A stretch of 64,000 nt of DNA from a virus: positions 36,075 through 100,074 of the IMG/VR virus record IMGVR_UViG_3300025012_000045. One strand, 5' to 3'. The notes under the pieces are model-generated. The model did no database searches. It was not told the DNA's origin and saw nothing but the letters and a program-made list of their open reading frames with translations. Positions 6,357 to 60,178 of this stretch are shown here, one piece after another; positions within the stretch are counted from its first letter, which is position 1, and each line of letters starts with the position of its first letter. A program made the position numbers and the translations under genes.

Positions 6357-6387
6357 CAAAGGTAAGTAAAATAATTGACATTTCCAA
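6357..6387 (-). promoter_or_regulatory. Host-type (-33/-7) promoter with conserved leader
   Basis: Minus strand TTG (6385-6387), 20-nt spacer, TACCTTTG (6357-6364). The downstream leader contains GATATTTATTT, a late-motif variant, and is almost the same as the leader at 8087-8130, so early and late transcription may share it. Confidence 0.75.
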
Positions 6388-8731: not shown

Positions 8732-9148
8732 TTAATAGTTAATTAATGTTTTCATTCTATTCAATTGTTCATATAAACCAGACCCATAATAAATTTTTTT
8801 ATTTATTTCTTCTAATATTTTTTTAAAATTAGTCCAATATTTTTTATCTTGTGGTTTAGATTTTTTTATTACTACTTCTAATTTTTCAATTAAACATTGA
8901 TTAATATCGTATTTATTACTTTCTTTCCAACACATATTATAAGCTTTTGTTTTTTCAAATTCTTTCATTTGAGCCGTATAAGTATCCTCACGAATTCCAA
9001 ACCTTTTTAAAATTTCTAGTATATCAGAATTATCTAATGTTTTTTTATCAAAATAAGTCCCACTCCCACCAAGTTCTCTTGATAATTTTTCTGCTGTACT
9101 TGCGGCTCTTATTAATGGCTCAAATTCATGTGGTTGTTTTTCTGGCAT
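8732..9148 (-). CDS. Hypothetical late protein
   Basis: 138 residues, start MPEKQPHEFEPLIRAAS, helical and charged. A TATTTATA motif 17 nt upstream suggests late expression and a virion or assembly role. No domain recognised. Confidence 0.6.
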   Translation of the reverse strand: MPEKQPHEFEPLIRAASTAEKLSRELGGSGTYFDKKTLDNSDILEILKRFGIREDTYTAQMKEFEKTKAYNMCWKESNKYDINQCLIEKLEVVIKKSKPQDKKYWTNFKKILEEINKKIYYGSGLYEQLNRMKTLINY

Positions 9149-11786: not shown

Positions 11787-12401
11787 ATGAAAAATTTATT
11801 TTTAATAGGATTTCTTATAATACAAATAATAAATACATATTCACAAACATATTCAGTGGAATATATTCGGTCTGAAACAACGAAATACTTGGAAAGATGT
11901 AAAGGAAGTATGTTATATCTTTATGGAGATAAAACTCCTTCTATGTGTAAAAACTCTCCTTACTGGGGTAAGAAAAAAATATACGAGCCAGAGATGATTG
12001 ACGAAACCACCTATTCAGGTAAAATGATCAGATATTTTGAGGGGACAAATAATATTTGTACAATTTCCTATTACTCAACTGGAAAAGAAACCAAAGATAT
12101 TTTATTTCATCCAGATGGGACGATTTATTCAATAATAAAATATCAATATGGGAAAAAAGAAGGGGAAGTAACTTTTGTTGACAGAAAAGGGAAAATAATA
12201 TTAATAGGTAACTATGAAAATGACGACCCTGTTGGTAATTGGTATACTCCTACTTGGTGGGATAATGGTTTTCCTATTACAAGTTCTTATGCCCGTAATC
12301 AATTTCCAGGTGCCATAGATGAAATGGTTCAAATAATACAATTTTATAAAAATAGTCATTATAGATTTATAGGTAATTTAGATATTCAAAATTGTGAATA
12401 A
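11787..12401 (+). CDS. Exported MORN-variant repeat protein
   Basis: 204 residues. The signal peptide ends TYSQ at about residue 20. Residues ~85-160 have the Bacteroidota MORN-variant pattern (YYSTGKETKDILFHPDG, YQYGKKEGEVTFVDRKGK, GNYENDDPVGNW). Such proteins are usually periplasmic or surface-exposed. Its 3' end overlaps the next gene by 8 nt. Confidence 0.7.
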   Translation: MKNLFLIGFLIIQIINTYSQTYSVEYIRSETTKYLERCKGSMLYLYGDKTPSMCKNSPYWGKKKIYEPEMIDETTYSGKMIRYFEGTNNICTISYYSTGKETKDILFHPDGTIYSIIKYQYGKKEGEVTFVDRKGKIILIGNYENDDPVGNWYTPTWWDNGFPITSSYARNQFPGAIDEMVQIIQFYKNSHYRFIGNLDIQNCE

Positions 12402-12711
12402 ATTATTTCTTTTCATCATTTTATTATTCTCGTTAAAATCAGACAGAATATTTATTAACACTGACTGTTCTTTCAAAGGTCATAAACTATACGGAAAAAT
12501 ACAATATGTTGACAAATTCCCTGACGTTAAAGTACAGGTAGTTGATAATTTTCCAGATTTAAAAGTACAAATAGTTGACAATTTCCCAGACAAGTGTGGA
12601 AAATGGAAGATTGTTAAAGAATTCCCAGACCTTAAAGTTCAAATTGTAAAATCTTTCCCAGATATTAAAATTCAGTATGTTGACAAATTTCCAGGGTTAA
12701 ACAAAAATTAA
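12394..12711 (+). CDS. Exported FPD-repeat protein
   Basis: 105 residues. A hydrophobic signal sequence (residues 3-14) is followed by about six copies of an 11-residue repeat of the form VQ-V-VD-FPDLK, for example KVQVVDNFPDLK. One insertion (KCGKWKIVKE) breaks the series. The repeats alternate beta-prone and turn residues, suggesting a small solenoid. No function known. Confidence 0.7.
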   Translation: MNKLFLFIILLFSLKSDRIFINTDCSFKGHKLYGKIQYVDKFPDVKVQVVDNFPDLKVQIVDNFPDKCGKWKIVKEFPDLKVQIVKSFPDIKIQYVDKFPGLNKN

Positions 12712-13437: not shown

Positions 13438-13659
13438 ATGAAAAAAAATAAACAAACATTAAGTCAGAGAAGAAGAAAGGCAACAAAACAAAAGAAAAAA
13501 CATGATAAGGATTCTAAAAATAGGCCCAAAAGATTATTAAGTTTTAAAAGGGGACGAGCACAAATGGCATATACTTTCAATAAAAAAAGAATTGAGGAAA
13601 TTCAAAAGATTCTTAAAGAACAATCAGAAGGGAAAGAAAGTATTATTGAAAATAAATGA
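13438..13659 (+). CDS. Small highly basic protein
   Basis: 73 residues. The N-terminal half is Lys/Arg-rich (SQRRRKATKQKKKHDKDSK), the C-terminal half helical. ATG follows TAATAAA. A TATTTTTG box at 13412-13419 may be the promoter. The composition suggests DNA or RNA binding. Confidence 0.55.
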   Translation: MKKNKQTLSQRRRKATKQKKKHDKDSKNRPKRLLSFKRGRAQMAYTFNKKRIEEIQKILKEQSEGKESIIENK

Positions 13660-13697
13660 AAGGTCAATAAATAAATGATTTTTTTGAAATTAACTGA

Positions 13698-13705
13698 TAT
13701 TTATA
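13698..13705 (+). promoter_or_regulatory. Late-type promoter motif TATTTATA
   Basis: CTGATATTTATATAAAT, 46 nt before ATG 13752. Confidence 0.5.
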
Positions 13706-13751
13706 TAAATAAAATAATTATTTTTAATTAAAAATGAAAGGAGTAAAAATT

Positions 13752-14135
13752 ATGAAAAAACTGTTTAAAATATTTCTTGGTATTGTAATGTTTATGTTTG
13801 TTACAATACAAGTGAAAGGACAAGATTCAATAGTTGATAATAAATCAATTTCTAATCTTAATGGGGTAATTACTTCATTAAAAGAGTTAAACGATAATAA
13901 TTTAGTAAATATTATTAATACTTTAGAAAAATTATCTACTGAAACATTGGGAGTTTGTCAATTTCAAGAATTATCTTCAAGGGAAAAGGAAGAAGTTGTT
14001 TTTGTTATAGATAATGTTAATTTTACTTTGAGTAAAATTAATTATGGTTCCTATGATAGTGTTATTGTAAATTTGGAAGAAATATTAAAAGAATATAGCT
14101 CATATGGAAATTTGAAAAACAGTATTGTAAAATAA
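13752..14135 (+). CDS. Exported small protein
   Basis: 127 residues from ATG 13752 (AAAATTATG context). An in-frame ATG at 13734 would add six residues in front of the signal peptide. Signal peptide to about residue 22 (FMFVTIQVKGQ). The mature part is helical with one Cys. A strong terminator follows. The late motif suggests late expression. Unknown function. Confidence 0.6.
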   Translation: MKKLFKIFLGIVMFMFVTIQVKGQDSIVDNKSISNLNGVITSLKELNDNNLVNIINTLEKLSTETLGVCQFQELSSREKEEVVFVIDNVNFTLSKINYGSYDSVIVNLEEILKEYSSYGNLKNSIVK

Positions 14136-18505: not shown

Positions 18506-19207
18506 ATGGAAAATTTGAAAGAACAAATATCCAGAATGAAAGAATTGATTAATTATAATATTAATTATGGATATATAAATGAAGAAATGCAGATTTCTGA
18601 TGATTTTAATGAAGAAAATTTTATTTTAGAAAAAGAAAATAGAAGAGTTTATATAGATGTTGGAATTGATATACAAAATGAAAAAGAACATAAATCGTAC
18701 TTAATTGTACTTTTTACTAATAAGCAAGGGTTTGAAGAACTAATGTTTTATTTCATGGTTTTAGATAAGAATGATCGAGCAGTTCCTGGATTAGAAACTA
18801 TTTATGATAGAAAAATAGCAAATAAATATATTCCAGATGAATTAAAGGGAACTGGAAAACTTAAAGATAAAATAATAAAAATGACACAAAAATTATTAAA
18901 TATGGAAAATCCAGCAAGATTTATTGTTCAAACATATGAGGATTATAAAGATGAAAAACAATTAGATTGGCATCAGCCAATAATTGATTTATTATTAAAA
19001 AATGGATATATGCTAAAAAATAAAGGATTAACTTATGATAAAAAAAATTACTACTGGGAATTTGTTCAAGCAACTAAAGAAACATTACCAGAAGGATATG
19101 AGCCAATTAAATGGAAACCAAGAGATAAAGAATTTTATGATAATATTCGTGGGATATCGGAATCTATTGCCAAAAATATAAGAGAAAGAAATAAAAAAAT
19201 TATTTAA
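18506..19207 (+). CDS. RMKEL-peptide family protein A
   Basis: 233 residues. The N-terminus LKEQISRMKELINYNINYG is shared with a paralog at 59480-60178, and its core with several other proteins here. The body carries IDVGIDIQNEKEHKSY, YEDYKDEKQLDWHQPIIDL and a conserved ending YYWEFVQATKETLPEGYEP. A GNAT-like fold is conceivable from the alternating strands but not established. It abuts the upstream virion gene with no gap. Confidence 0.6.
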   Translation: MENLKEQISRMKELINYNINYGYINEEMQISDDFNEENFILEKENRRVYIDVGIDIQNEKEHKSYLIVLFTNKQGFEELMFYFMVLDKNDRAVPGLETIYDRKIANKYIPDELKGTGKLKDKIIKMTQKLLNMENPARFIVQTYEDYKDEKQLDWHQPIIDLLLKNGYMLKNKGLTYDKKNYYWEFVQATKETLPEGYEPIKWKPRDKEFYDNIRGISESIAKNIRERNKKII

Positions 19208-19216
19208 CAATAAAAA

Positions 19217-19507
19217 ATGAAAATAAGATTAACCGAAAGTCAATTAAGACAATTAATAGAGAATATTATTAAAGAGGAGGATAAAGAATTTTCAACTAAA
19301 TTACTAAGTATTGATCCAATAACTGGTGAAAGGTCTTGGGATGTAAAATATAAAACAAATTTAAATACTATATATAAAGATATTGATGATATTGTAAATA
19401 AAATAGAAAAATTGGTTGTTAAAAATAGAAATGATTTGGAAGCAAAAGAATTATTGAAAATATCCAAATTATTGAGAAATAAATTTTCAAGGTATATATT
19501 AAAATAA
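19217..19507 (+). CDS. LTESQL-motif small late protein
   Basis: 96 residues. The N-terminus is KIRLTESQLRQLIENIIKEE, a helix-forming tag that recurs in several late proteins of this cluster. The remainder is a charged helical hairpin. Likely a small virion or assembly protein. Confidence 0.6.
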   Translation: MKIRLTESQLRQLIENIIKEEDKEFSTKLLSIDPITGERSWDVKYKTNLNTIYKDIDDIVNKIEKLVVKNRNDLEAKELLKISKLLRNKFSRYILK

Positions 19508-22204: not shown

Positions 22205-22606
22205 ATGAATATAGAAAATTTAAATCAAAAAATTGAAGAAGGAATTAAAAAACTGGTCAAAGAGAGGGCTAAATCAAAAAGTCAAAGGAAGTTATTTGCT
22301 TTGGCAAAATCAGTAAAATCTGGTGAAACACTAAGAAGTGAAGTATCAAAAGATGTATTGGATATTGCAGATAAAGTATCTGGAAAAGAAATTGATAAAT
22401 TTGCAAGTACAAAAGAAAAAGGATTACCAGAGAAAGTAAAAAAAGATAAAGTAGAAGAAACAAGTAATGACAATCTTGCACAGGCATATGGTGGAGACAG
22501 TAATTCTTGGCCATCTGGAACTGGGGAATGGAATAATTTAGAAGAAGAAAGTGAAATTCCAACATTAAATCTTGATGATGTTGATTTAACAGAAGATGAC
22601 AAATAA
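22205..22606 (+). CDS. DUF3008-like phage protein
   Basis: 133 residues. Residues 20-80 (AKSKSQRKLFALAKSVKSGE, then SGKEIDKFASTKEKGLPEKV) match the DUF3008 pattern (SKaQQr...A...kG...fA.TKh.GLP). The C-terminus is acidic and disordered. The family recurs in phage structural regions, function undefined. It overlaps the next gene by 11 nt. Confidence 0.7.
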   Translation: MNIENLNQKIEEGIKKLVKERAKSKSQRKLFALAKSVKSGETLRSEVSKDVLDIADKVSGKEIDKFASTKEKGLPEKVKKDKVEETSNDNLAQAYGGDSNSWPSGTGEWNNLEEESEIPTLNLDDVDLTEDDK

Positions 22607-23534
22607 AATTATAAAAATTAAAGAATCAGAACTAGTTCAATTATTAGTAGAAAGTTTAGGAGTTAATATTGATGTTGACATATTGTCAAAATTTTTAATA
22701 GATTATTTAAAAGATAAAAAATATGACCAACATATAATTAATAAGAATCAATTACTTGAACTAAATAAAGTTAATATAAATAAAATTATTATTGATTATA
22801 GTGATAAAAATCAGGTAGATTATTTTGATATTAAAAAATCAAGGAAAACAAATGATGGTGAAGTTCTTTATTTTCATTTTGACGATTTAAATCCTAATTC
22901 CATATATCATGAAATAAATCATGCATTGCAATTTTTTATTATGGGTAAAGAAAGAAATAAAGAACAATTAACATCAATAAAGGCATCAAGAATATCCAGA
23001 ATTTTTATTGATAAAAATAATGAAGTAATTAAAAGATTTTCTGATTTAATATATAAATCTACCGAGCAAGAAATTAATTCAGAGGTATCTGGTTTATATG
23101 GTGAACTAATAACACATCTTAGAAATAAAGGATGGAAAAAAGGTCAATTTAAAAATGATGAACATTTTAAATTAATATTTGAACAATATGTTAATAATAG
23201 TGAAGCATATAATATTGCATTAAATATGATTAATTATAATATTTTTGAAGAGTTTGATATTAAAAATTTAATAGGTATTGATGATTATGATAAAAGAGTT
23301 TATTTCACTATCATGCAAGATGTGATTAAATCAAAACCTTTTTATAGTGGAATATTAGATTTGTTTAGATTATTTAAAGAATTATTGACATATAAATATA
23401 ATCAAATGTTTAATGTGAATATTTTAACAGAAGAACAAGTTAATTCCTTAATGAAAAAATATCAATTATTTATTAATAAACAGGGAGAAAAATTAAAAAG
23501 AAAATTATTTAGACTATATTATTTATTTTTATAA
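22596..23534 (+). CDS. Predicted zinc-metallopeptidase-like protein with N-terminal helical tag
   Basis: 312 residues. The N-terminus IIKIKESELVQLLVESLG is the helical tag of this cluster. Residues ~104-110 read YHEINHA, an HExxH zinc signature, and a downstream STEQEINSEVSG could give a third ligand. The remainder is helical. A tagged, late-expressed protease could ride in the particle or act in maturation (inference). No prohead-protease similarity is seen. Confidence 0.5.
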   Translation: MTNKIIKIKESELVQLLVESLGVNIDVDILSKFLIDYLKDKKYDQHIINKNQLLELNKVNINKIIIDYSDKNQVDYFDIKKSRKTNDGEVLYFHFDDLNPNSIYHEINHALQFFIMGKERNKEQLTSIKASRISRIFIDKNNEVIKRFSDLIYKSTEQEINSEVSGLYGELITHLRNKGWKKGQFKNDEHFKLIFEQYVNNSEAYNIALNMINYNIFEEFDIKNLIGIDDYDKRVYFTIMQDVIKSKPFYSGILDLFRLFKELLTYKYNQMFNVNILTEEQVNSLMKKYQLFINKQGEKLKRKLFRLYYLFL

Positions 23535-28016: not shown

Positions 28017-28817
28017 ATGAATAATTTTAAAAATTTGTATGAACAACTGGAGAGAATGGTTGATTTGATTAATTATAATAGTGGGGATTATATTGAAGAA
28101 GATAATGTTGCCATATTATATGAAGGATTAATAAGAACAGTTTCTTTAGGATTGGCAAAAGTAATGTTGAATAGATGGTATAAAACATATAATATCCCCG
28201 ATTATCATGGCGAAGCACTTCAATATAGAAATGTAAATATAAGACAAGACGATACTTTAAGTATGTACATATTAGATGTGGTGGGTGATAAAGAGAAGAT
28301 AGAAGATTTATTATCGTATATTAATAATTTAGGATATGAAGTTTCTTTAATTTTAACTAAAAAAATAAATGGTAATAAAAATGAAACAAAATTTACAAAA
28401 GATAATTTATATTCTTTTGCGGGCCAAAGTAATAATCTAGAATACATATATATTGTTTTGGAAGCAAAATTTGATTTAGAAATAGATGAAAAAGATTGGC
28501 CAGATAAGTTATATCATGTTACAAGACAAGATGTTTTACATAAAATAAAAAAAATAGGAATAACTCCACGAACAGAATCAAAAAAATCAACACATACAGA
28601 AAGAGTTTATTTTGCAAAAAATTATAATTCTGCTAAAATTATTTATCATCAATTTAAAAAAGATTATTCAAATCAGAAATTTGCCATATTAGAAATTAAT
28701 CCAAAATTGGTTAATTATTTAAGATTATTTGACGATCCAAATTTTAAAGGATATGGTTATTATGGGTTGGTGAATGTGCCACCGGATGCAATAAAAATAG
28801 TAAAAGAAAATATATGA
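28017..28817 (+). CDS. ADP-ribosyltransferase-like protein with RMKEL-type N-terminal peptide
   Basis: 266 residues from ATG 28017. The N-terminus FKNLYEQLERMVDLINYN is the shared peptide of the RMKEL family. The C-terminal ~105 residues look like an ART fold: KLYHVTRQDVLHKIKKIGI (His in YHxT near residue 166), RVYFAKNYNSAK (Tyr near 197), AILEINP (possible Glu). An H-Y-E type active site is plausible. It overlaps an RHH gene by ATGA. T4 packages the ART Alt behind a cleaved N-terminal peptide, an attractive parallel. Activity is inference. Confidence 0.55.
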   Translation: MNNFKNLYEQLERMVDLINYNSGDYIEEDNVAILYEGLIRTVSLGLAKVMLNRWYKTYNIPDYHGEALQYRNVNIRQDDTLSMYILDVVGDKEKIEDLLSYINNLGYEVSLILTKKINGNKNETKFTKDNLYSFAGQSNNLEYIYIVLEAKFDLEIDEKDWPDKLYHVTRQDVLHKIKKIGITPRTESKKSTHTERVYFAKNYNSAKIIYHQFKKDYSNQKFAILEINPKLVNYLRLFDDPNFKGYGYYGLVNVPPDAIKIVKENI

Positions 28818-29225: not shown

Positions 29226-30467
29226 ATGGAAATACCAGAAACTACATTTATATATACTTTATCTGATCCAAGAAACAATAATGTAAGATATGTGGGTAAA
29301 ACAGATAGGATTAATAAAAGATTGTGGTATCATATAACACCCACTAAACTAAATAAAAATACTCATAAGAATAATTGGATCAAGAAATTATTAAAGGAGA
29401 ATATAAAACCAGATATTAAGGTTATTGATAAAGTTCCATATAAAGAATGGAAATATTGGGAAACATATTGGATTTCGCAAATGAAGTCATGGGGATTTAA
29501 TCTAACCAATTCAACCAGTGGGGGTGATGGTTTCGGGTCTGGGAAAGACAATCCGATGTATGGGAAGAAAAGACCAGACTTATTAGCAATGAATAAAAGC
29601 GATAATCATCCAGCCAAAGGGGCAAAAAGAAGTGATGAATATAAAGAAAATTTAAGTAAAGTACAATCTAAAATATTATTTAAACAATATACTATAGACG
29701 GTGAATTTATAAAACAATGGAAAGGATTTACTAGAAGTGGCCTGGAGTTAAACATATGTGGTAGTGACATTGCTAGATGTTGTTATGGGGAAAGAAAAAG
29801 CGCAGGAGGATTTCAATGGTGTCTTATTGGGGATGAAGATAAAATAATTGAAAATTATGATCCTATTTTGTATAAATTAAAAAAAGTTATTCAATATGAT
29901 TTAGAAGGAAGTTTCATAAAAGAATGGGATTCAATAATAGAAGCAAAGGAGAGATTAGGAAACCATGTTAATATTTGTGCTGTTGCATCTGGTAAGAGAG
30001 GAACTGCTGGTGGTTATCAATGGAGATATAAAGAAAATGATGATTTTTCTTTAAAAATAGAACCGATAAAATATAAAATAATTTCTAATAAAGCAAAACC
30101 AATAATACAGTATGATTTAAATGGCAATTTTATTAAAGAGTGGCCAAGTATAGAAAAGGCGCAAAAGGAACTTTATATTCATAGCAATTGCATCCGTGCA
30201 GTTTGTTATGGAAGATCTAAAACTATTGGCGGATTTATTTGGAAGTTTAAAGGGGATGAATTAAAATTAAAAGACCATGTAAACTTAAATTTTAAACCTA
30301 TAGTACAATATGATTTAAAAGGTAATAAAATTAAAGAATGGAATTCTATTAAAGAGGCAGCAAATAAATTTGATGTTAGTCATTCTTGTATTAGTACTGC
30401 TATAAGTGGATATAGAGGAAAAAAGAACGCTGCTGGATTTGTTTGGAAGTTTAAAAATAAAATTTAA
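29226..30467 (+). CDS. GIY-YIG homing endonuclease with NUMOD repeats
   Basis: 413 residues. The N-terminal ~95 residues are GIY-YIG (FIYTLSDPRNNNVRYVGKT, H of LWYHITP, E of WKYWETYWI). NPMYGKKRP is a NUMOD3-type DNA-binding segment. Four NUMOD1-type repeats follow, each with (I/K)QYDL.G.FIKEW.SI.EA and AGGF.W(K/R). It sits directly upstream of the intein-containing glycosyltransferase gene. Confidence 0.85.
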   Translation: MEIPETTFIYTLSDPRNNNVRYVGKTDRINKRLWYHITPTKLNKNTHKNNWIKKLLKENIKPDIKVIDKVPYKEWKYWETYWISQMKSWGFNLTNSTSGGDGFGSGKDNPMYGKKRPDLLAMNKSDNHPAKGAKRSDEYKENLSKVQSKILFKQYTIDGEFIKQWKGFTRSGLELNICGSDIARCCYGERKSAGGFQWCLIGDEDKIIENYDPILYKLKKVIQYDLEGSFIKEWDSIIEAKERLGNHVNICAVASGKRGTAGGYQWRYKENDDFSLKIEPIKYKIISNKAKPIIQYDLNGNFIKEWPSIEKAQKELYIHSNCIRAVCYGRSKTIGGFIWKFKGDELKLKDHVNLNFKPIVQYDLKGNKIKEWNSIKEAANKFDVSHSCISTAISGYRGKKNAAGFVWKFKNKI

Positions 30468-30471
30468 AAAT

Positions 30472-32834
30472 ATGAGTAAAAAAAATATAATGGTATTAAG
30501 GTCTGATAATTCGGGGGTTGGATTTTTTAGGTCGCTTCAACCGCATATAAATTTGGAAAAATTATACCCAGATGAGTTTCACTGCGAGATGTATACACCA
30601 AATGAAGTTAATTGGAATGATGATGATTTTCTAAAAAGATTTGATTTAATTCATTATCATAGAACAATGTGTGATTATGAACAAATGCCCCCATTACTAG
30701 ATAAATTAAAAAAAATGGGAACTCATTCAATAATGGATTTGGATGACTTTTTTTTTTTCCACACAGATTTCATCCAATCTATCACGTAATTAAAGAAAGT
30801 AAACTTGGAGAAAAGATATTAAATAATGTTAAATCGGCAGAATACGTAACAACCACAACTCCTATTTTTGCAGATTTAATTAAACCACATAATAAAAATG
30901 TTTTTGTTTTACCTAATACAATAGATCCGACTATGGATCAATTTATCCCTAAAAATATAGAAAGAGAAAAAGTTGCTGTTGGATATCTTGCAGGTTCATG
31001 CTTAGATGATCAAACCGAAATATTAACAGAAAATGGTTGGAAATTATTTGAGAATTTAGAAAAAGAAACAGAAAAAGTAGTAACACTAAATCCAGAAACT
31101 AATGAAATAGAGTATCATTTACCAAAAAGATATATTAAAGAAAAATATAACGGTAAATTACATTACATTGAAAACAAAAATGTATGTTATGCTGTTACTC
31201 CAAATCATAATATGTATGCTTCAATACATAAACCAGGATTAAATAATAATATGTCACATAAAAAATTAAATTTACAATTAATTAAGTCAGAAAATCTTTT
31301 TGGTAAGTATTTTCATTGTAAAAAAGATGCTATTTGGAAAGGTGAAGAAAAAGAATATTTTGTATTACCTAAAATTGAATATATTATGTCTAATGGAAAT
31401 AGTTCTAGAATTATTGTTTGTGAAGAAAGAAAATTTAAAATGGATGATTGGCTAAAATTTTTTGGTTTTTGGTTGGCCGAAGGGTGGATATCTAAAACTA
31501 AAAATTTATATCAAGTTGGTGTATCGCAAAAAAAAGATAATGATTATCTTAATATAATGAAAAAAATATTTAAAGAATTTGGATTTAATCCCCTATATAG
31601 TAACGATAAGATACAGTTAAGAGTAATAAATAAACAATTGTGGGCATATTTGAAACAATTTGGTGGAGCTAAGGAAAAATATATTCCAAAAGAAATATTA
31701 AAATTATCTACAAGGCAACTTAATATTTTATTAGATTGGTATATAAAGGGTGATGGGAATACATCAAGAGGTGATCAATATAAAAATAAATTTCAGAGAA
31801 AACATGCTTGGACGGTTTCAAAAAAATTGGCAGACGATTTAATGGAAATTTCACTAAAAACAGAAATTGCTGCATCTATTAAAAATAGAGGCAAAAGAAA
31901 TTCTAGAATGTCAGATGGGAGAGAGATTAGTGCAACTACAGATTGTTATACAATAAGTTTTTATTCACATCCACTAGATAGTAAGAAAAATAAATTAACC
32001 CCACCAATTAGACCTGAACACCAAAAAGAAATTAAATATAGTGGGTATGTTTATTGTGTTGAAGTTGATAATCATTTAATATATGTGAGAAGAAAAAATA
32101 GTAAAAATACTGAAATGGGACTTTGGGTGGGTAATTCCCATTTGATCGATGTAGAAGAAATAAGGGGACTATTTCAAAGACTAAGAGTTGATGATACTTT
32201 GAAAAATAAATTTCAAGTAGCTTTATGCGGATTCGATTTGAGGGGGACACATACGGATGTTGATACAAGAACAGGAGAAAAAAGAACAAGAAATATAGAA
32301 CCTAAAGAAACCAGCTGGTATCAATATGAACGCATTTTTACAGATGATTATAGAATGATTGAAGATAAAAAATATTTAGATTTTTTAATGAAATTTAAAA
32401 GAGAAGATTATCCAAATGAAGAAAATATGATTTATAGACGTGTCTGGACAAAGTTATTGAAAAAATATGCAACTAATTATAATTTAATGGATATTTCTCT
32501 TGCTCCCCTATCATTGAAAGGGAAAGAATTTAATTTAGCAAAAAGCCAGCTTAAATTAATTGAATCCTCTTTTCATAAGAAAGCTGTGATTTGCACATCT
32601 TATGCTCCAAAAATTGGTCCTTATGATATTGATGGGAGGCATGAAAAAAATTGTATATTAATTCCAGAGAGAAAAAATCATAAAGATTGGTTCAAATATG
32701 CAAAAAAACTAATTGAATCAAAAAATATGAGGGAGGACTTAGGAAATCAACTATATGAAGATTTTCATATAAAATATCATATAGATACTGATAGTAAATT
32801 AAGAAGAGAGTTTTATCTTTCAATTTTAAAATAA
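30472..32834 (+). CDS. Glycosyltransferase (GT4-like), frameshifted and intein-containing
   Basis: The N-terminal part (30472-30789) starts MSKKNIMVLRSDNSGVGFF and reaches DLDDFFFF at a T11 run (30748-30758), then stops. Reading one extra base there, or slipping back one, continues as PHRFHPIYHVIKESKLGEK through PNTIDPTMDQF and joins the 3' frame to 32834. The joined host protein continues GYLAGS / SHLIDVEEIRGLFQRL after removal of a 379-residue intein. LPNTIDP and GY.....H..D are GT4-like landmarks. It probably adds sugars to a glycan. Whether the frameshift is real, programmed or an assembly error is open. Confidence 0.65.
30748..30758 (+). repeat. T11 homopolymer at the frameshift site
   Basis: Eleven consecutive T within GAC-T11-CC. 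UUUUUUU is a slippery heptamer for -1 frameshifting and long T tracts also cause polymerase slippage. Either would restore the glycosyltransferase frame. Confidence 0.7.
30999..32135 (+). other. Intein with LAGLIDADG endonuclease (379 aa)
   Basis: It begins with Cys1 in block A (CLDDQTEILTENGWKLF) and has block B VTPNHNMYA. LAGLIDADG-type motifs are FFGFWLAEGWIS and LLDWYIKGDGNTS. Block F is GYVYCVEVDNHLIYVRR and block G ends GLWVGN, followed by Ser as first C-extein residue. The penultimate residue is Gly, not the usual His. The host residues on either side (GYLAGS and SHLIDVEE) join into a continuous glycosyltransferase motif. Confidence 0.85.
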
Positions 32835-39188: not shown

Positions 39189-40403
39189 ATGAAAAAATTT
39201 AAAACCATAGAAGAAGAATTGTCCAGAATGAAAGAATTATCTGGCATGAAGGAAGATCAAAAATTAATTGATAAATCTGGATTTGCAAGAATAAATAGAA
39301 TGTTATGGGGAGGAGTTTCATCAATTAATTCTGTTGGAATATTAACAGCAGAAAATCCTCAAGGGCAACAGTTATCTCCAGAAGAAAATAATAAAAGAAT
39401 GAAAGATTTAAAAACTGCTTTAGGGACTTATGGGTTTATTGATGTTAGAGGAAAATTTAGGACTAAAGAAGGTAATAATTTAATTGAAAATTCTCTTATT
39501 ATTCCTAATTTACCTAAAGAAACATTACTCTGGTTACAAAAAAAATTTGAACAAGAATCTGTTATTTATGGAGAAAGAAAAGATAAAAATACATTTTTAT
39601 TTGAATATATTAAAAACGGTAATATTGAAGATAAACAAGAAGTCATTTTATCAAAGATGGAAGGTAATGAAGAATATTATTCATATTTACCAAAAACCAG
39701 TAAAAAAGATGGAGAAAAAATAAAATATGAAAGAAGTTTCAGAATACCATTTTTTGATAAAGTTGGTTATAGAAATCCCACAGGTCAAGGAACGTGGGAA
39801 ATAATTGAATATTATGGATTCCTGGGTATAAATTTAGATAATTTACCGAAAGATAATAAGGAAATTAATTTATTGTTAAATGAAATTAAAAAAAATGAGA
39901 AAGAATTGTTGATAGAAGGATTAATTCCAAAATATTATTGGGTAAGAAGAGGCATAATAAATAATTATATTAAAACAATAAAAGACATTATAGAACAAAT
40001 TAATAATAGTTATTTTATTGATATTGAGAATTTACCAAAGGGTAATGAAAAAGTATTAAACATATTAAAGGAAATAAGAGAAAATAAAAAAGAGTTAATT
40101 ATAAATAATTCACTTTCTGATGATTATATTGTTAGAAAATATAGAATAAAAGAATTAAAAAATGAATTGAAAGATTTGATTAAAGAAAATAAAATAGTTA
40201 AATTAACAGAAGAACAGTTGGAAGAAATAACAAAAGATCAAGAAGTATATAATTATTTTTTAACATATGATAAACCATTTATATATTCAAGCCCAGAAGT
40301 TCATTATAAAGAATCACTAAATAAGAGTAAAGAATTGTTTAATCATATTCCAAAAAATTTTAAAAAATTTTGTTTTGAGGAGTATGAAAGACAAAAAAAT
40401 TAA
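39189..40403 (+). CDS. DUF3293-like protein with RMKEL peptide, long form 1
   Basis: 404 residues. Start ATG 39189 is chosen by alignment with the paralog at 45600. N-terminal peptide KFKTIEEELSRMKELSGM. The core GILTAENPQGQQLSPEENNK, then LGTYGFIDVRGKFRTKEG, ENSLIIPNL and KKFEQESVIYG resembles the DUF3293 pattern. The C-terminal half is helical with the ending KPFIYSSPEVHY. It is ~80% identical to 45600-46820. Function unknown. Confidence 0.6.
   Translation: MKKFKTIEEELSRMKELSGMKEDQKLIDKSGFARINRMLWGGVSSINSVGILTAENPQGQQLSPEENNKRMKDLKTALGTYGFIDVRGKFRTKEGNNLIENSLIIPNLPKETLLWLQKKFEQESVIYGERKDKNTFLFEYIKNGNIEDKQEVILSKMEGNEEYYSYLPKTSKKDGEKIKYERSFRIPFFDKVGYRNPTGQGTWEIIEYYGFLGINLDNLPKDNKEINLLLNEIKKNEKELLIEGLIPKYYWVRRGIINNYIKTIKDIIEQINNSYFIDIENLPKGNEKVLNILKEIRENKKELIINNSLSDDYIVRKYRIKELKNELKDLIKENKIVKLTEEQLEEITKDQEVYNYFLTYDKPFIYSSPEVHYKESLNKSKELFNHIPKNFKKFCFEEYERQKN
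39280..39830 (+). repeat. Duplicated DNA, copy 1 (with 45700-46250)
   Basis: This stretch and 45700-46250 are nearly identical at the nucleotide level, including silent sites, showing a recent duplication or gene conversion between the two long DUF3293-like genes. The outer parts of the genes have diverged more. Confidence 0.7.
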
Positions 40404-44501: not shown

Positions 44502-44532
44502 TTGACTATTTAAATTATTTTGTTTATTTTTG
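44502..44532 (+). promoter_or_regulatory. Host-type (-33/-7) promoter, near-leaderless
   Basis: TTGAC at 44502, 20-nt spacer, TATTTTTG at 44525-44532. ATG 44539 lies only 6 nt after the -7 box, so the mRNA should be leaderless or nearly so. Confidence 0.7.
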
Positions 44533-44538
44533 TATTAT

Positions 44539-45294
44539 ATGAAAGAACATAAAAGTTTTGAAGAATATGTTACTAGATTTAGAGAATTGGCAGGTCTTAA
44601 ACCTGATGATAACCCAATTGATTTTTTACCAAAACAAATTCCTGCTGAAGAATATTTAACAGAAGATAAAATAAAAGAGTTAAATGAAAGTAGTTTAACT
44701 AGAATACGACAACATATATTAAATCACGATATTACAACAATAAGTGCATGGAGAGATAAAAATGAAAATTGTGTAGAATATAGAGAAGGTGCAGAGAGAA
44801 ATAAAATTTTTACAAGAGAAGAAAAAAATGAAAGGAATTTGGAATTAAGTTCTGCATTATTGAAAAAGAGATATGGTGTTACATATATTAGAGGAATATC
44901 ACAAGAAGGAAAACAGATAGTTCAGGAAAATAGTTATCTCGTTGTTAATTTAAATAATGATGAAAAATTTATTGATAATGTAAAGAAATTGGGGCAATAT
45001 TATTGTCAGGATTCTGTACTAATAAAAGAAAAAAATAATGAAAATGCATATTTAATTGGAACAAATAATTTTCATAGATTGGGACTTAATAAAAAACAAA
45101 TATTAGGTAAATTTCATCCAGGAATAGAAAATGAACTCATGTCAAAAATACATGGAAGGCCATTTTATTTTGGTGAGAATGTAGATAGAGAGGGGCCAAT
45201 ACAATTTGAAATATATGATGAATTTAGTATTGGTGCAAGACAAGCAGTTACAAAAACATCAGAAAAAATTTTAAATGAAATATTTAAAAAATGA
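44539..45294 (+). CDS. RMKEL-family protein, short form 1
   Basis: 251 residues. N-terminal peptide HKSFEEYVTRFRELAGL. The core reads SSLTRIRQHILNHDITTISA, ENSYLVVNLNNDEKFIDNV, LGQYYCQDSVLIKE, AYLIGTNN and IHGRPFYF. It is a paralog of 46838-47524 and a distant relative of the long DUF3293-like pair (shared RI...L..H.i..isa, ENS.lv.nl, Q.SVLI). Behind an early promoter. Unknown function. Confidence 0.6.
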   Translation: MKEHKSFEEYVTRFRELAGLKPDDNPIDFLPKQIPAEEYLTEDKIKELNESSLTRIRQHILNHDITTISAWRDKNENCVEYREGAERNKIFTREEKNERNLELSSALLKKRYGVTYIRGISQEGKQIVQENSYLVVNLNNDEKFIDNVKKLGQYYCQDSVLIKEKNNENAYLIGTNNFHRLGLNKKQILGKFHPGIENELMSKIHGRPFYFGENVDREGPIQFEIYDEFSIGARQAVTKTSEKILNEIFKK

Positions 45295-45590
45295 AGAAAT
45301 ATAAAAGTTTTGAAGAATATGTTATTGATACTTTAAAATTGATAATTCCAATAACTACTGGATTTAAATCAAGTCAAATATCATATGTGTTTGATGGTAA
45401 GGTTAATTATTTTACATATTATAAAAATACTAATAAATTATGGATTAATTACAGAGAAATATATTGTGGATTTGTAGATGATCTTGGAATTTTTAGTATA
45501 GAGATATTTAGAAAAATAATAAGAAATAAAATAAAGGAATATTTAAAATTAAATAACAAAGTAAAAGTTTTAAGAAACTCAAATTTTTAA
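45291..45590 (+). CDS. Hypothetical protein with related N-terminal peptide
   Basis: 99 residues, ATGA-coupled to the previous gene. The N-terminus KKYKSFEEYVIDTLKLI copies the peptide of its neighbour, but the body (VFDGKVNYFTYYKNTNKLW) is unrelated. It shows the peptide attached to a new domain. Confidence 0.55.
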   Translation: MKKYKSFEEYVIDTLKLIIPITTGFKSSQISYVFDGKVNYFTYYKNTNKLWINYREIYCGFVDDLGIFSIEIFRKIIRNKIKEYLKLNNKVKVLRNSNF

Positions 45591-45599
45591 TAAATAAAA

Positions 45600-46820
45600 A
45601 TGAATAAATTTAAAACATTAAATGAAGAAATAGACAGAATAAAAGAATTATCTGGAATTGAGAAAAAAGAATCAACTCAATTAATTGATGAATCTGGATT
45701 TGCCAGAATAAATAGAATGTTATGGGGGGGAGTCCCATCAATTAATTCTGTTGGAATATTAACAGCAGAAAATCCCCAAGGGCAACAGTTATCTCCAGAA
45801 GAAAATAATAAAAGAATGAAAGATTTAAAAACTACTTTGGGGACTTATGGGTTTATTGATGTTAAGGGAAAATTTAGGACTAAAGAAGGTAATAATTTAA
45901 TTGAAAATTCTCTTATTATTCCTAATTTACCCAAAGAAACATTATTCTGGTTACAAAAAAAATTTGAACAAGAATCTGTTATTTATGGGAAAAGAAAAGA
46001 TAAAAATACATTTTTATTTGAATATATTAAAAACGGTAATACTGAAGATAAACAAGAGGTTATTTTATCAAAGATGGAAGGTAATGAAGAATATTATTCG
46101 TATTTACCAAAAACCAGTAAAAAAGATGGAGAAAAAATAAAATATGAAAGAAGTTTCAGAATACCATTTTTTGATAAAATTGGTTATAGAAAATCCACTA
46201 ATCAAGGAACGTGGGAAATAACTGAACATTATGGATTTTTAGATATGAATTTAGAAGATTTACCAAAAGACAATAAAGAAATAAATTTATTATTAAATGA
46301 AATTAAAAAAAATGAGAAAGAATTATTGATAGAAGGATTAATTTCAAAATATTATTGGGTAAGGAGAGGTATAATAAATGAATCTATTAAGATAATAAAA
46401 GAAATTTTGGATCAACTTGAAAATGGATTTATTAATATTGATATTGATAATTTACCAAAAGGTAATGAGGAAGTATTAATATTATTAAAAAATATAAGAG
46501 AAAATAAAAAAAGATTGATTGTAAATGATTCATTATCCAATGATTATATTGGAAAAAAACATGAAATAAATGAATCAATCAGAAGATTAAAAGAACTTAT
46601 AAAAGAAAATAAGATATTTAAATTAACAGAAGAACAATTGGAAGAAATAACAAAAGACCAGGAAATATATAATTATTTTTTGATAAATGATAAACCGTTT
46701 ATCCATGCAACTGCCGAACAACATTATAATCAATCAAAAGAAAAAAGTTTGGAATTATTCAATCACATACCAAAAAATTTTAAACAATTTTGTTTTGAAG
46801 AATATGAACGTAATAAATAA
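45600..46820 (+). CDS. DUF3293-like protein with RMKEL peptide, long form 2
   Basis: 406 residues, close paralog of 39189-40403. Peptide NKFKTLNEEIDRIKELSGI. The DUF3293-like core is nearly identical, including TAENPQGQQLSPEENNK. The C-terminal helical half is more diverged and ends KPFIHATAEQHYNQS. Unknown function. Confidence 0.6.
   Translation: MNKFKTLNEEIDRIKELSGIEKKESTQLIDESGFARINRMLWGGVPSINSVGILTAENPQGQQLSPEENNKRMKDLKTTLGTYGFIDVKGKFRTKEGNNLIENSLIIPNLPKETLFWLQKKFEQESVIYGKRKDKNTFLFEYIKNGNTEDKQEVILSKMEGNEEYYSYLPKTSKKDGEKIKYERSFRIPFFDKIGYRKSTNQGTWEITEHYGFLDMNLEDLPKDNKEINLLLNEIKKNEKELLIEGLISKYYWVRRGIINESIKIIKEILDQLENGFINIDIDNLPKGNEEVLILLKNIRENKKRLIVNDSLSNDYIGKKHEINESIRRLKELIKENKIFKLTEEQLEEITKDQEIYNYFLINDKPFIHATAEQHYNQSKEKSLELFNHIPKNFKQFCFEEYERNK
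45700..46250 (+). repeat. Duplicated DNA, copy 2 (with 39280-39830)
   Basis: Nearly identical nucleotide sequence to 39280-39830. See that entry. Confidence 0.7.
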
Positions 46821-46837: not shown

Positions 46838-47524
46838 ATGAATAAATACAAAACATTAAATGAAGAAATAAATAGAATAAGAGAATTATCTGGATTAGAT
46901 ACAACTATTGAAGAAAGTTCACTTAGCAGAATATTTGAACATTTATCAAAACACGATATTGCCATGATGACAGCATTTAGAAAAGAAAATATAGACTGTC
47001 TTGATGAAGAAAAAAATACAAAAGGAATTATTACAAAAGAAGATAATTTAGTAAGAAATAAAAAATTACAAGTATCATTATTATCTTTAGATTATAGTGT
47101 TACTGCAATAGATGGTTCTGTAATAAAAAATTTTGGTAAAGAAAATGAAAGGGAATTTAAAGAAAATAGTTTTTTAGTTGTTAATTTATATGATGATGAA
47201 AAATTTATTAATAACATAATAAAACTTGGACAATATTTTTGTCAGGACAATGTTTTAATAAAAGAAAAGGAAAAAGAAAATGCTTATTTAATTGGAACTA
47301 ACAATTCAAACGGTCCAGGATTAAATCAAAGATATGATTTGGGAAAATATAAACCAGGAATAGAATCACAATTTATGTCAAAAATAAAAGGAAGACCGTT
47401 TTATTTTGAACAATATGATAATTTTAATATTGGGGCCAAACTTATAATAACTAATGAATCTAAAGAGATTTTAGAAGAGATAGAAAAATATAATATTAAT
47501 GATATAAAATTAAAAAAATTATGA
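46838..47524 (+). CDS. RMKEL-family protein, short form 2
   Basis: 228 residues. Peptide NKYKTLNEEINRIRELSGL, then SSLSRIFEHLSKHDIAMMTA, ENSFLVVNLYDDEKFINNI, LGQYFCQDNVLIKE, AYLIGTNN, IKGRPFYFEQY. Paralog of 44539-45294 (about 50% identical by eye). ATGA-coupled to the next gene. Confidence 0.6.
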   Translation: MNKYKTLNEEINRIRELSGLDTTIEESSLSRIFEHLSKHDIAMMTAFRKENIDCLDEEKNTKGIITKEDNLVRNKKLQVSLLSLDYSVTAIDGSVIKNFGKENEREFKENSFLVVNLYDDEKFINNIIKLGQYFCQDNVLIKEKEKENAYLIGTNNSNGPGLNQRYDLGKYKPGIESQFMSKIKGRPFYFEQYDNFNIGAKLIITNESKEILEEIEKYNINDIKLKKL

Positions 47525-51180: not shown

Positions 51181-51630
51181 ATGAAAACAATAACAGGTGA
51201 TTTAATAAAGCAAGCAAACGAGTTTGATATAATTGTTCATGGCTGCAATTGTTTTTGCACGATGGGTGCCGGTATTGCCAAACAAATTAAAGATAATTTT
51301 AATGAAGCACACTTGGTTGATATTCAAACTCAATATGGGGATAAAAACAAATTAGGAACAATAACTTATACAAAAAATACTAAACCGATAATTGTTAACG
51401 CATATTCCCAATATAAATATACAAGAGATGAGGTGGATGTTGATTATGAAGCAATAAGAAGCTGTATGAAAGAAATTAAAAATAAATTTAGTGGAAAGAA
51501 AATAGGTATGCCATTAATTGGGTGCGGTTTGGCCGGTGGGGCCTGGTCAATTATTAGTGAGATTATAGAAGAAGAATTAGAAAATGAAGATATAACAATT
51601 GTTAAATGGGATAAAAATACTAAGATTTGA
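51181..51630 (+). CDS. Macro domain (ADP-ribose-binding/hydrolase) protein
   Basis: 149 residues, the whole length of one macro domain. GDLIKQANEFDIIVHGCNCF, CTMGAGIAKQIK, then IGMPLIGCGLAGGAW. The N and G-rich loop that bind ADP-ribose are present. It resembles phage Appr-1''-p processing proteins that remove or bind ADP-ribose, and could counter host ADP-ribosylation or process products of the ART-like protein at 28017 (inference). Confidence 0.85.
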   Translation: MKTITGDLIKQANEFDIIVHGCNCFCTMGAGIAKQIKDNFNEAHLVDIQTQYGDKNKLGTITYTKNTKPIIVNAYSQYKYTRDEVDVDYEAIRSCMKEIKNKFSGKKIGMPLIGCGLAGGAWSIISEIIEEELENEDITIVKWDKNTKI

Positions 51631-59479: not shown

Positions 59480-60178
59480 ATGAAAGACCAAATATCCAGA
59501 ATGAAGGAATTAATAAATTATAATATTAATTATGGTTATATTAATGAAGAAATGATAACTTCTGATAATTTTAAAAATAATAATTTTATAAAACAAAAAG
59601 AAATTAGATCTGTTATATTAGAAGTTGGAATTGATCCAGAAAATGAAAAAGAATATAGAATAGTTTTAATATTATCTTTTACAAATAAAGGTGGGTATGA
59701 AGAACTTGTATTTGCCTTTTCATTATTAGATAAAGATAATCAGTTTGTAAAAGGAAAAGAAAGTATTTATAATAGAGAAGAAGTAAATAAATATTTACCA
59801 AAAGAATTACAAAAAAGTATTATTTTCTTTGGTAAACTAAAAGAAATGTTTAAAAAATTAATAACAATGGAAAAACCAATCAGATTCTTCATTGAAACAT
59901 ATGAAGATTATAAAAATGAAAAATTAATAAACGCATATGGGCCAATTATTGATTTAATATTGAAAAATGGATATATGTTAAAAGATAAAGGAATAACACA
60001 TGATAAAAAGAAATATTTCTGGGAATTTATTCAAGCAACCAAACAAACACTGCCAGAAGGATATGAACCATTTGATATTTCAAAAGTTAAAAAAGATGAC
60101 GCATATTGGCAACATAGAAAAGAACTTACAATGGAAGCAGTTAGACTGATGTTAGAGAGTGAGAAAAAAGTTATTTAA
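59480..60178 (+). CDS. RMKEL-peptide family protein A, second copy
   Basis: 232 residues, paralog of 18506-19207 throughout. Shared MK.QISRMKELINYNINYG, EVGIDPENEKEYR, FIETYEDYKNEKL and KKYFWEFIQATKQTLPEGYE. The late motif directly upstream points to late expression. The two copies are 41 kb apart. Unknown function, possibly a packaged protein. Confidence 0.6.
   Translation: MKDQISRMKELINYNINYGYINEEMITSDNFKNNNFIKQKEIRSVILEVGIDPENEKEYRIVLILSFTNKGGYEELVFAFSLLDKDNQFVKGKESIYNREEVNKYLPKELQKSIIFFGKLKEMFKKLITMEKPIRFFIETYEDYKNEKLINAYGPIIDLILKNGYMLKDKGITHDKKKYFWEFIQATKQTLPEGYEPFDISKVKKDDAYWQHRKELTMEAVRLMLESEKKVI

Follow-up and report, generated by a model that had tools for sequence, protein, structure and literature searches.

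An N- or C-terminal peptide on unrelated phage proteins that probably copies the tail of the prohead scaffold

A short peptide that recurs at the termini of otherwise unrelated proteins in this phage is most probably a head-targeting tag copying the extreme C-terminus of the gp22-like prohead scaffold of the same phage. Very likely the tag system functions like the capsid targeting sequence (CTS) of bacteriophage T4 without matching it in sequence, and we infer that the tagged proteins are packaged, cleaved, and injected. The first-pass annotation of this DNA had suggested a head-cargo system analogous to that of T4, a suggestion supported by the resemblance of the tag to the scaffold C-terminus, by the co-variation of tag and tail, and by a T4-type cleavage motif usually lying behind the tag.

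Carriers of the peptide

The window, the 64,000-nucleotide stretch analyzed here, comprises positions 36075-100074 of a 100,074-base IMG/VR virus record, and the other 36 kb were read as segments L004 and L005. The genome is AT-rich (GC 24.8%), and its replication genes are of the T4-superfamily type by similarity to Flavobacterium phage immuto (NC_055915); the immuto-similar genes encode a UvsX-like recombinase, a DnaB-type helicase, an ssDNA-binding protein, an exonuclease, and ribonucleotide reductase. Comparison with immuto revealed no portal, protease, scaffold, or shell gene in the 100-kb fragment, and the S77 protease family had zero matches there; the scaffold comparison therefore rests on the scaffolds of relatives. 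Genes were taken from a simple open-reading-frame script, and certain start codons may be wrong. Shuffle tests used 20 replicates.

Eight proteins, designated here by first coordinate, had been listed as beginning with a peptide of the form F..L.EEI.RMKEL. Proteins 18506, 59480, 28017, 39189, 44539, 45600, and 46838 do carry this tag, termed type 1, with the leading F..L.EE part missing in 18506 and 59480, but 45291 lacks the R-M/I-K-E-L core (MKKYKSFEEYVIDTLKLII) and is at best a remnant. The genome-wide search for the peptide that the annotation had called for was run on the 100-kb record and yielded further copies (Table 1), among them one at the C-terminus of 8732-9148, the same end as in the scaffold. 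Paralogue pairs occur among the carriers (18506/59480, 39189/45600, and 44539/46838), and across the whole record the carriers fall into the 18506 family, with three copies, the pair formed by 28017 and its paralogue, the proteins of the SAM lyase family, and singletons. Three clearly distinct types of tagged body are present in the window, not the four or more first claimed, since both SAM lyase pairs match the same Pfam families (PF23780, DUF3293). Relatives of 18506 in G001 and G003 retain the tag.

Table 1 Tags and tagged proteins in the window and in the remainder of the record (L004, L005)
Feature	Position	Strand	Remarks
Protein with C-terminal type-1 tag	8732..9148	-	ending in LYEQLNRMKTLINY / GSGLYEQLNRMKTLINY
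Type-1 tag	18506..18589	+	MENLKEQISRMKELINYNINYGYINEEM; N-terminus of protein 18506-19207
Tagged protein	18506..19207	+	233 aa; family of unknown function, 3 paralogues in record
Type-2 tag	19217..19282	+	MKIRLTESQLRQLIENIIKEED; on 96-aa protein (gene 19217-19507), directly after tagged gene 18506
Protein with weak type-2-like N-terminus	22596..23534	+	zincin-like HExxH (YHEINHALQ)
Type-1 tag	28017..28103	+	MNNFKNLYEQLERMVDLINYNSGDYIEED
Tagged protein	28017..28817	+	266 aa; weak PHROG 5470 match (E 0.002)
Type-1 tag	39189..39248	+	MKKFKTIEEELSRMKELSGM
Tagged protein	39189..40403	+	DUF3293 / S-AdoMet lyase-like domain and C-terminal extension
Type-1 tag	44539..44598	+	MKEHKSFEEYVTRFRELAGL
Tagged protein	44539..45294	+	S-adenosylmethionine lyase family
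Degenerate start only	45291..45590	+	KSFEEYVIDTLKLI; without RMKEL core
Type-1 tag	45600..45659	+	MNKFKTLNEEIDRIKELSGI
Tagged protein	45600..46820	+	39189 paralogue; DUF3293 / S-AdoMet lyase-like
Type-1 tag	46838..46897	+	MNKYKTLNEEINRIRELSGL
Tagged protein	46838..47524	+	S-AdoMet lyase family; 44539 paralogue
Type-1 tag	59480..59554	+	MKDQISRMKELINYNINYGYINEEM
Tagged protein	59480..60178	+	18506 paralogue
Protein with N-terminal tag	L004:8166-8816	-	outside window
Protein with N-terminal tag	L004:18506-19342	-	outside window; GTG start; 28017 paralogue
Protein with N-terminal tag	L005:3723-4061	-	outside window
Protein with weaker N-terminal tag	L005:2819-3670	-	outside window

The shared peptide is genuine and greatly exceeds chance expectation. 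A de novo comparison of 14-mers that ignored the motif found 34 similar pairs from non-homologous proteins at N-termini, whereas C-termini yielded 4 and internal draws 5, 5, and 10. The corresponding pairs in Microcystis phage Mel-JY01 numbered 10 at N-termini, 9 at C-termini, and 6 and 2 internally, so that N-terminal similarity is no general artefact. Across 15 genomes (649,830 residues), there were 18 matches to this lineage's two core patterns, all of them at protein termini. An early promoter ahead of the copies at 44.5 kb had been held against the cargo reading, but the site at 44517 has two mismatches and about 20 such matches are expected by chance; exact TTTG/TAnnTTTG sites number 10 against 6.6 expected, no clear excess over chance. 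The 44517 site is usable as evidence neither for nor against the cargo reading. A near-identical promoter-like element (TTTGGAAATGTCA..ATTNTACTTANCTTTG), resembling Bacteroidota promoters, is found in the window at 94 and 627 on the plus strand and at 6357, 8130, 8684, 27895, and 63876 on the minus strand.

Among the tagged bodies, PF23780 matched in four genes: 39189, 44539, 45600, and 46838. Against a curated cut-off of 28 bits, the translated proteins of 44539, 46838, and 45600 scored 37.2, 30.1, and 29.4, respectively, and 39189 scored 26.6 as a translated protein and 28.7 in the genome search. The predicted model of 44539 was moderate overall with a good core (pLDDT about 80), and its best PDB matches were the phage SAM lyases 6zm9 (E 9.4e-4) and 8bb1 (probability 1.00), with modest TM-scores. 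One glutamate and one glutamine are invariant in the family alignment and could correspond to the catalytic Glu69 and Gln104. SAM lyases counter restriction and BREX, and a related phage enzyme breaks down SAM-AMP, a type III CRISPR signal described in Bacteroides fragilis (PMC12255297).

One body had also been described as ART-like. A single weak match of 28017 to the RNA 2'-phosphotransferase/ART-like PHROG 5470 agrees with this, but its paralogue gave no such match, 28017 itself had none in Pfam or the PDB, and its AlphaFold model (pLDDT 44) was unusable. The 28017 pair might conceivably be ADP-ribosyltransferases. Inspection by eye indicated a macrodomain-looking protein at 51181-51630 (GDLIKQANEFDIIVHGCNCFCTMGAGIAKQI), of interest beside a possible ADP-ribosyltransferase. 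A small secreted-looking protein at 12394-12711 consists of repeats of the form (V/I)V..FPD(L/I)K(V/I)Q. Apparent inteins were seen by eye at 30406-32834, in or beside a glycosyltransferase-like gene, and in the terminase and portal of G001 (L103:8898-11750 and L103:12602-16549).

The tag and the scaffold tail

Close relatives possess a T4-type head cassette with an S77 prohead protease, a scaffold, and a gp23-like shell protein, and the protease was found in G001-G003, immuto, G004-G006, and G013. The IMG/VR search with the single protein 18506 gave no match; the search with the 18506-family alignment reached three loci, which are contigs of relatives and bear the S77 protease, and scanning IMG/VR with degenerate DNA versions of the tag returned just 1 and 2 loci, which were of little use. 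The gene order in G001 is protease, a 422-aa acidic protein, and the gp23-like shell protein. From its position and composition we call the 422-aa protein the putative gp22-like scaffold; the PHROG scan gave no match for it, and almost zero matches for scaffold and cargo proteins generally.

The product of the gene lying between those for the S77 protease and gp23 has the C-terminus QLENQIKRMKDLMNYSTNGK in both G001 and G003. The final residues of the scaffold in close relatives are QIKRMKDLMNY, as compared with QISRMKELINY in the cargo tag, and the C-terminal 14-mer of a relative's scaffold scored 47, 46, and 39 against N-termini from the present genome, the maximum among 20 shuffles being 28. 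The proteins encoded at the equivalent position in 78 further loci share a tail that is strongly conserved and in most cases reads ESKTYENPQFLRMKDLMSK, which indicates that the scaffold has the tag core as a terminal peptide throughout the clade.

Across the sequences compared, the tag and the scaffold tail differ in step between lineages. In immuto and its kin the scaffold tail reads RWQKLAGII and the starts of tagged proteins read RMQKLAGII. The immuto scaffold ends in SEQVSRWQKLAGIIK, and gp083 and gp230, two small proteins unrelated to each other, start with MKKQILSEQFRRMQKLAGIITES and MKKQILSEQFKRMQFLAGIITES, in which the short lead MKKQIL is followed by SEQFRRMQKLAGIITES and SEQFKRMQFLAGIITES. 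Against their own scaffold, gp083 and gp230 scored 48 and 41 (shuffle maximum 30), and against the scaffold of the other lineage both scored at most 18. Cross-lineage scores of these proteins and of those scoring 47, 46, and 39 above fell to chance level.

The pattern R[MW]Q.[LY]AG[IV] was matched 9 times in the 15 genomes, exclusively in four immuto-like ones, as four scaffold C-termini, four N-termini, and one second internal copy. In 80 immuto-like head loci (323,645 aa), a related pattern gave 66 matches, 60 of them no more than 10 residues from a C-terminus, which was almost always that of the scaffold, with 5 at the N-termini of other proteins and 1 internal. Four of these 5 N-terminal carriers, together with the C-terminal carrier L340:8234-8716, are encoded between protease and scaffold, a position that is no independent statistic since the loci were centred on the shell gene. 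Individual loci agree in detail, with RWQ in both scaffold and tag of L329 and LAGL in both for L360. The four SAM lyase-family tags of the present genome end in L(S/A)G(I/L/M), not LINY, and are closer to the scaffold of the other lineage, with scores of 30 and 27 against the immuto-type scaffold. This subtype may be derived from, or common to, the immuto lineage.

Other phages gave no such correspondence. The N-terminal tags of marine relatives (e.g., NEEIxRxKELMG) scored at shuffle level against their scaffold tail (ending in YENPQFLRMKDLMSK), and the 334-kb relative G014 has tags, none of which matched its own scaffold tail above shuffles. Mel-JY01, tested as a further case, has a conserved scaffold tail (VVERMKKLAGIVK) and no cargo tags. 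T4 was tried as a positive control and rejected, its CTS not matching the gp22 C-terminus: MKTYQEFIAEA and the MKTFKEFTSTT of IPI scored 10-18 against T4 gp22, gp67, gp68, gp21, gp23, and gp24. Without tail reuse in T4 and Mel-JY01, or a significant match in the marine group and G014, the reuse is lineage-specific.

Putative processing and alternative roles

In T4, gp21 cleaves after L/I-X-E (PMC9026906). The motif [LIVM]xE lies within 14 aa behind the core in 74% of 31 type-1 tags, versus 23% of 2,547 untagged proteins, and the probable propeptide end of the shell proteins displays the same motif (QIVSE|A, QLVTE|A, MLNE|S). Aligning the SAM lyase-family proteins places a candidate site directly before the catalytic domain: LNE|SSLTR in 44539, IEE|SSLSR in 46838, LAE|SSLSR in G001, and IDE|SGFARI in 45600, with 39189 as an exception (IDK|S, in which K replaces the E of the motif). 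For 28017 the candidate is ILYE|GLI, beyond the tag, and for its paralogue IYE|GLI. These motifs suggest that the tagged proteins are cut behind the tag.

Under the scaffold-tail reading, the tag would occupy the site that receives the scaffold tail, in the inner shell or the core lattice, during prohead assembly, and tagged proteins would thereby be incorporated into the prohead core. A gp21-type S77 protease would then cleave at [LIV]xE behind the tag, and the mature protein would stay inside the head with the DNA and be delivered at infection. Cargo of the SAM lyase family or possible ADP-ribosyltransferases would fit enzymes acting in the first minutes, in anti-restriction or host takeover.

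The core also resembles a short amphipathic helix, and in immuto-like phages small tagged proteins adjoin the scaffold gene, as assembly factors could. The peptide might accordingly bind the scaffold or other tagged proteins in the cytoplasm during assembly, in a chaperone-like or regulatory role, and never enter the head. We consider this unlikely, as it leaves unexplained both the tagged SAM lyase-family enzymes and the excess of head-protease motifs behind the tag.

The peptide could also address proteins to another destination, such as a replication site, the membrane, or a host protease, with the scaffold having it for a separate reason. Consistent with that are the numerous type-2 tags (RLTESDLTRIVKRVIKEQ), whose tie to the head is weaker. 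Many proteins unrelated to one another have such tags (MKIRLTESQLRQLIENIIKEE here and MKKIIRLTESDLTRIVKRVIKEQ in marine relatives), in the great majority of cases at residues 4-7. These and other tag classes might form an additional type of address. Another destination nevertheless appears improbable, given that in all head loci read that have the type-1 peptide it terminates the scaffold and that type-2-like starts occur within head cassettes as well (immuto gp072, G004, G006, and L353). Still less probable is a short 5' coding module spreading between genes without a role at the protein level, whether as a shared start region, translation signal, or promoter-proximal cassette: near-identical starts in paralogous clusters (18506/59480; 28017/L004:18506-19342) and nearby mobile genes would suit it, but the peptide is also C-terminal (8732, the scaffolds, L340) and internal (G005), and it tracks the scaffold tail across lineages.

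Several further tag-like starts were recorded. The type-2 class, (L/I)TES.LxR(L/I)(I/V)...I(I/K)xE, was seen at 19217-19507 in the window, at L004:1550-2107 and 2365-2925, at L005:11057-11629 and 13508-14071, and in G018, G021, G023, and G026, with at least 9 proteins in the 296-kb G018. Paralogous zincin-like proteins (YHE(I/M)NHALQ) at 22596-23534 in the window, L005:11631-12527, and L100:9910-10872 have type-2-like starts. G014 has an N-terminal class of its own, KKRLFEVMxxxDxxYKxxxLNE (L213:6583, L215:14779, L218:16451, L218:17355, L223:18141, and L230:9575), one member being on a DUF3293-type protein. In immuto, MENFDLKKFLVENKL starts four dissimilar proteins (gp003, gp076, gp077, and gp092) and is also found in G005; gp069, in the head cassette, has a similar start (MENNFDIHKWQAKFLKES). 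A conserved proline-rich protein with a tag-like start (e.g., KKIIEEIKRHNSINRYIVEQ) is encoded at L005:2819-3670, L283:1759-2430, L234:13769-14425, L251:18741-19376, and L262:502-1260, and could be either a structural protein or one internal to the head.

We tentatively entertain a modular addressing across this clade of the T4 superfamily, in which several classes of short N-terminal tag, each ending near a head-protease motif (the scaffold-tail type 1, the LTESDLxRIVKRVIKE type 2, and others), would mark at least 10 unrelated proteins per genome as a sizeable and swappable arsenal for counter-defence and takeover that the head delivers, the tags co-evolving with the scaffold.

Implications and known systems

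In the literature collection searched, we found no prior description of these tags and no virion proteomics of immuto. If the scaffold-tail reading is true, head cargo could be read from sequence by seeking the last 15 residues of a scaffold at the ends of other proteins, many unannotated phage genes would become testable candidates for injected counter-defence or takeover factors, and which proteins a phage injects would be a directly testable question in cultured immuto. The peptide would also be a short natural means of loading proteins into T4-like heads.

The propeptides of T4 internal proteins (IPs) target the core, and IPs co-purify with gp22; IPI is anti-restriction and Alt is an ART (PMC9026906). 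The present system resembles the CTS of IPI-IPIII and Alt in having a short N-terminal peptide common to unrelated proteins, a T4-type core and S77 protease (in relatives), an L/I-x-E-like site behind the peptide, and an anti-restriction enzyme family among the putative cargo. It differs in that type 1 (R-M-K-x-L-I-N-Y) is a peptide other than MKTYQEFIAEA, in that the tag appears to be the scaffold's own C-terminal peptide, and in that it can also be C-terminal on cargo. The immuto type-3 start MENFDLKKFLVEN is nearer the T4 CTS, by eye only.

The predicted likeness of the tagged enzymes to the SAM lyases of T3 and Svi3-3 is drawn from the PF23780 matches and from 6zm9 and 8bb1 as best structural matches. 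The T3 SAMase is the first expressed protein, made on infection (PMC8406200). In contrast, the relatives described here are head-tagged, which suggests that they could be pre-packaged and active before transcription of any phage gene.

To our knowledge, no scaffold-tail tag has been reported for P1 DarA, DarB, and Hdf. Compared by description only, these resemble the present proteins as head-associated anti-restriction proteins, as far as the consulted portions of the sources describe them (PMC12810830, PMC9024508). The consulted portions of reports on the large myoviruses phiKZ and SPN3US describe many head-packaged, protease-processed, and ejected proteins, including inner-body and ejection proteins whose propeptides are cut by the prohead protease (PMC7411985, PMC10052503). 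No common peptide of scaffold origin is mentioned in those portions, this comparison being likewise by description only.

Encapsulin cargo-loading peptides and P22 scaffold-fusion cargo are comparable in that cargo reaches the inside of an HK97-fold shell by means of a short peptide or a segment of scaffold. The difference is that here natural phage cargo genes would themselves bear the copy of the scaffold's tail.
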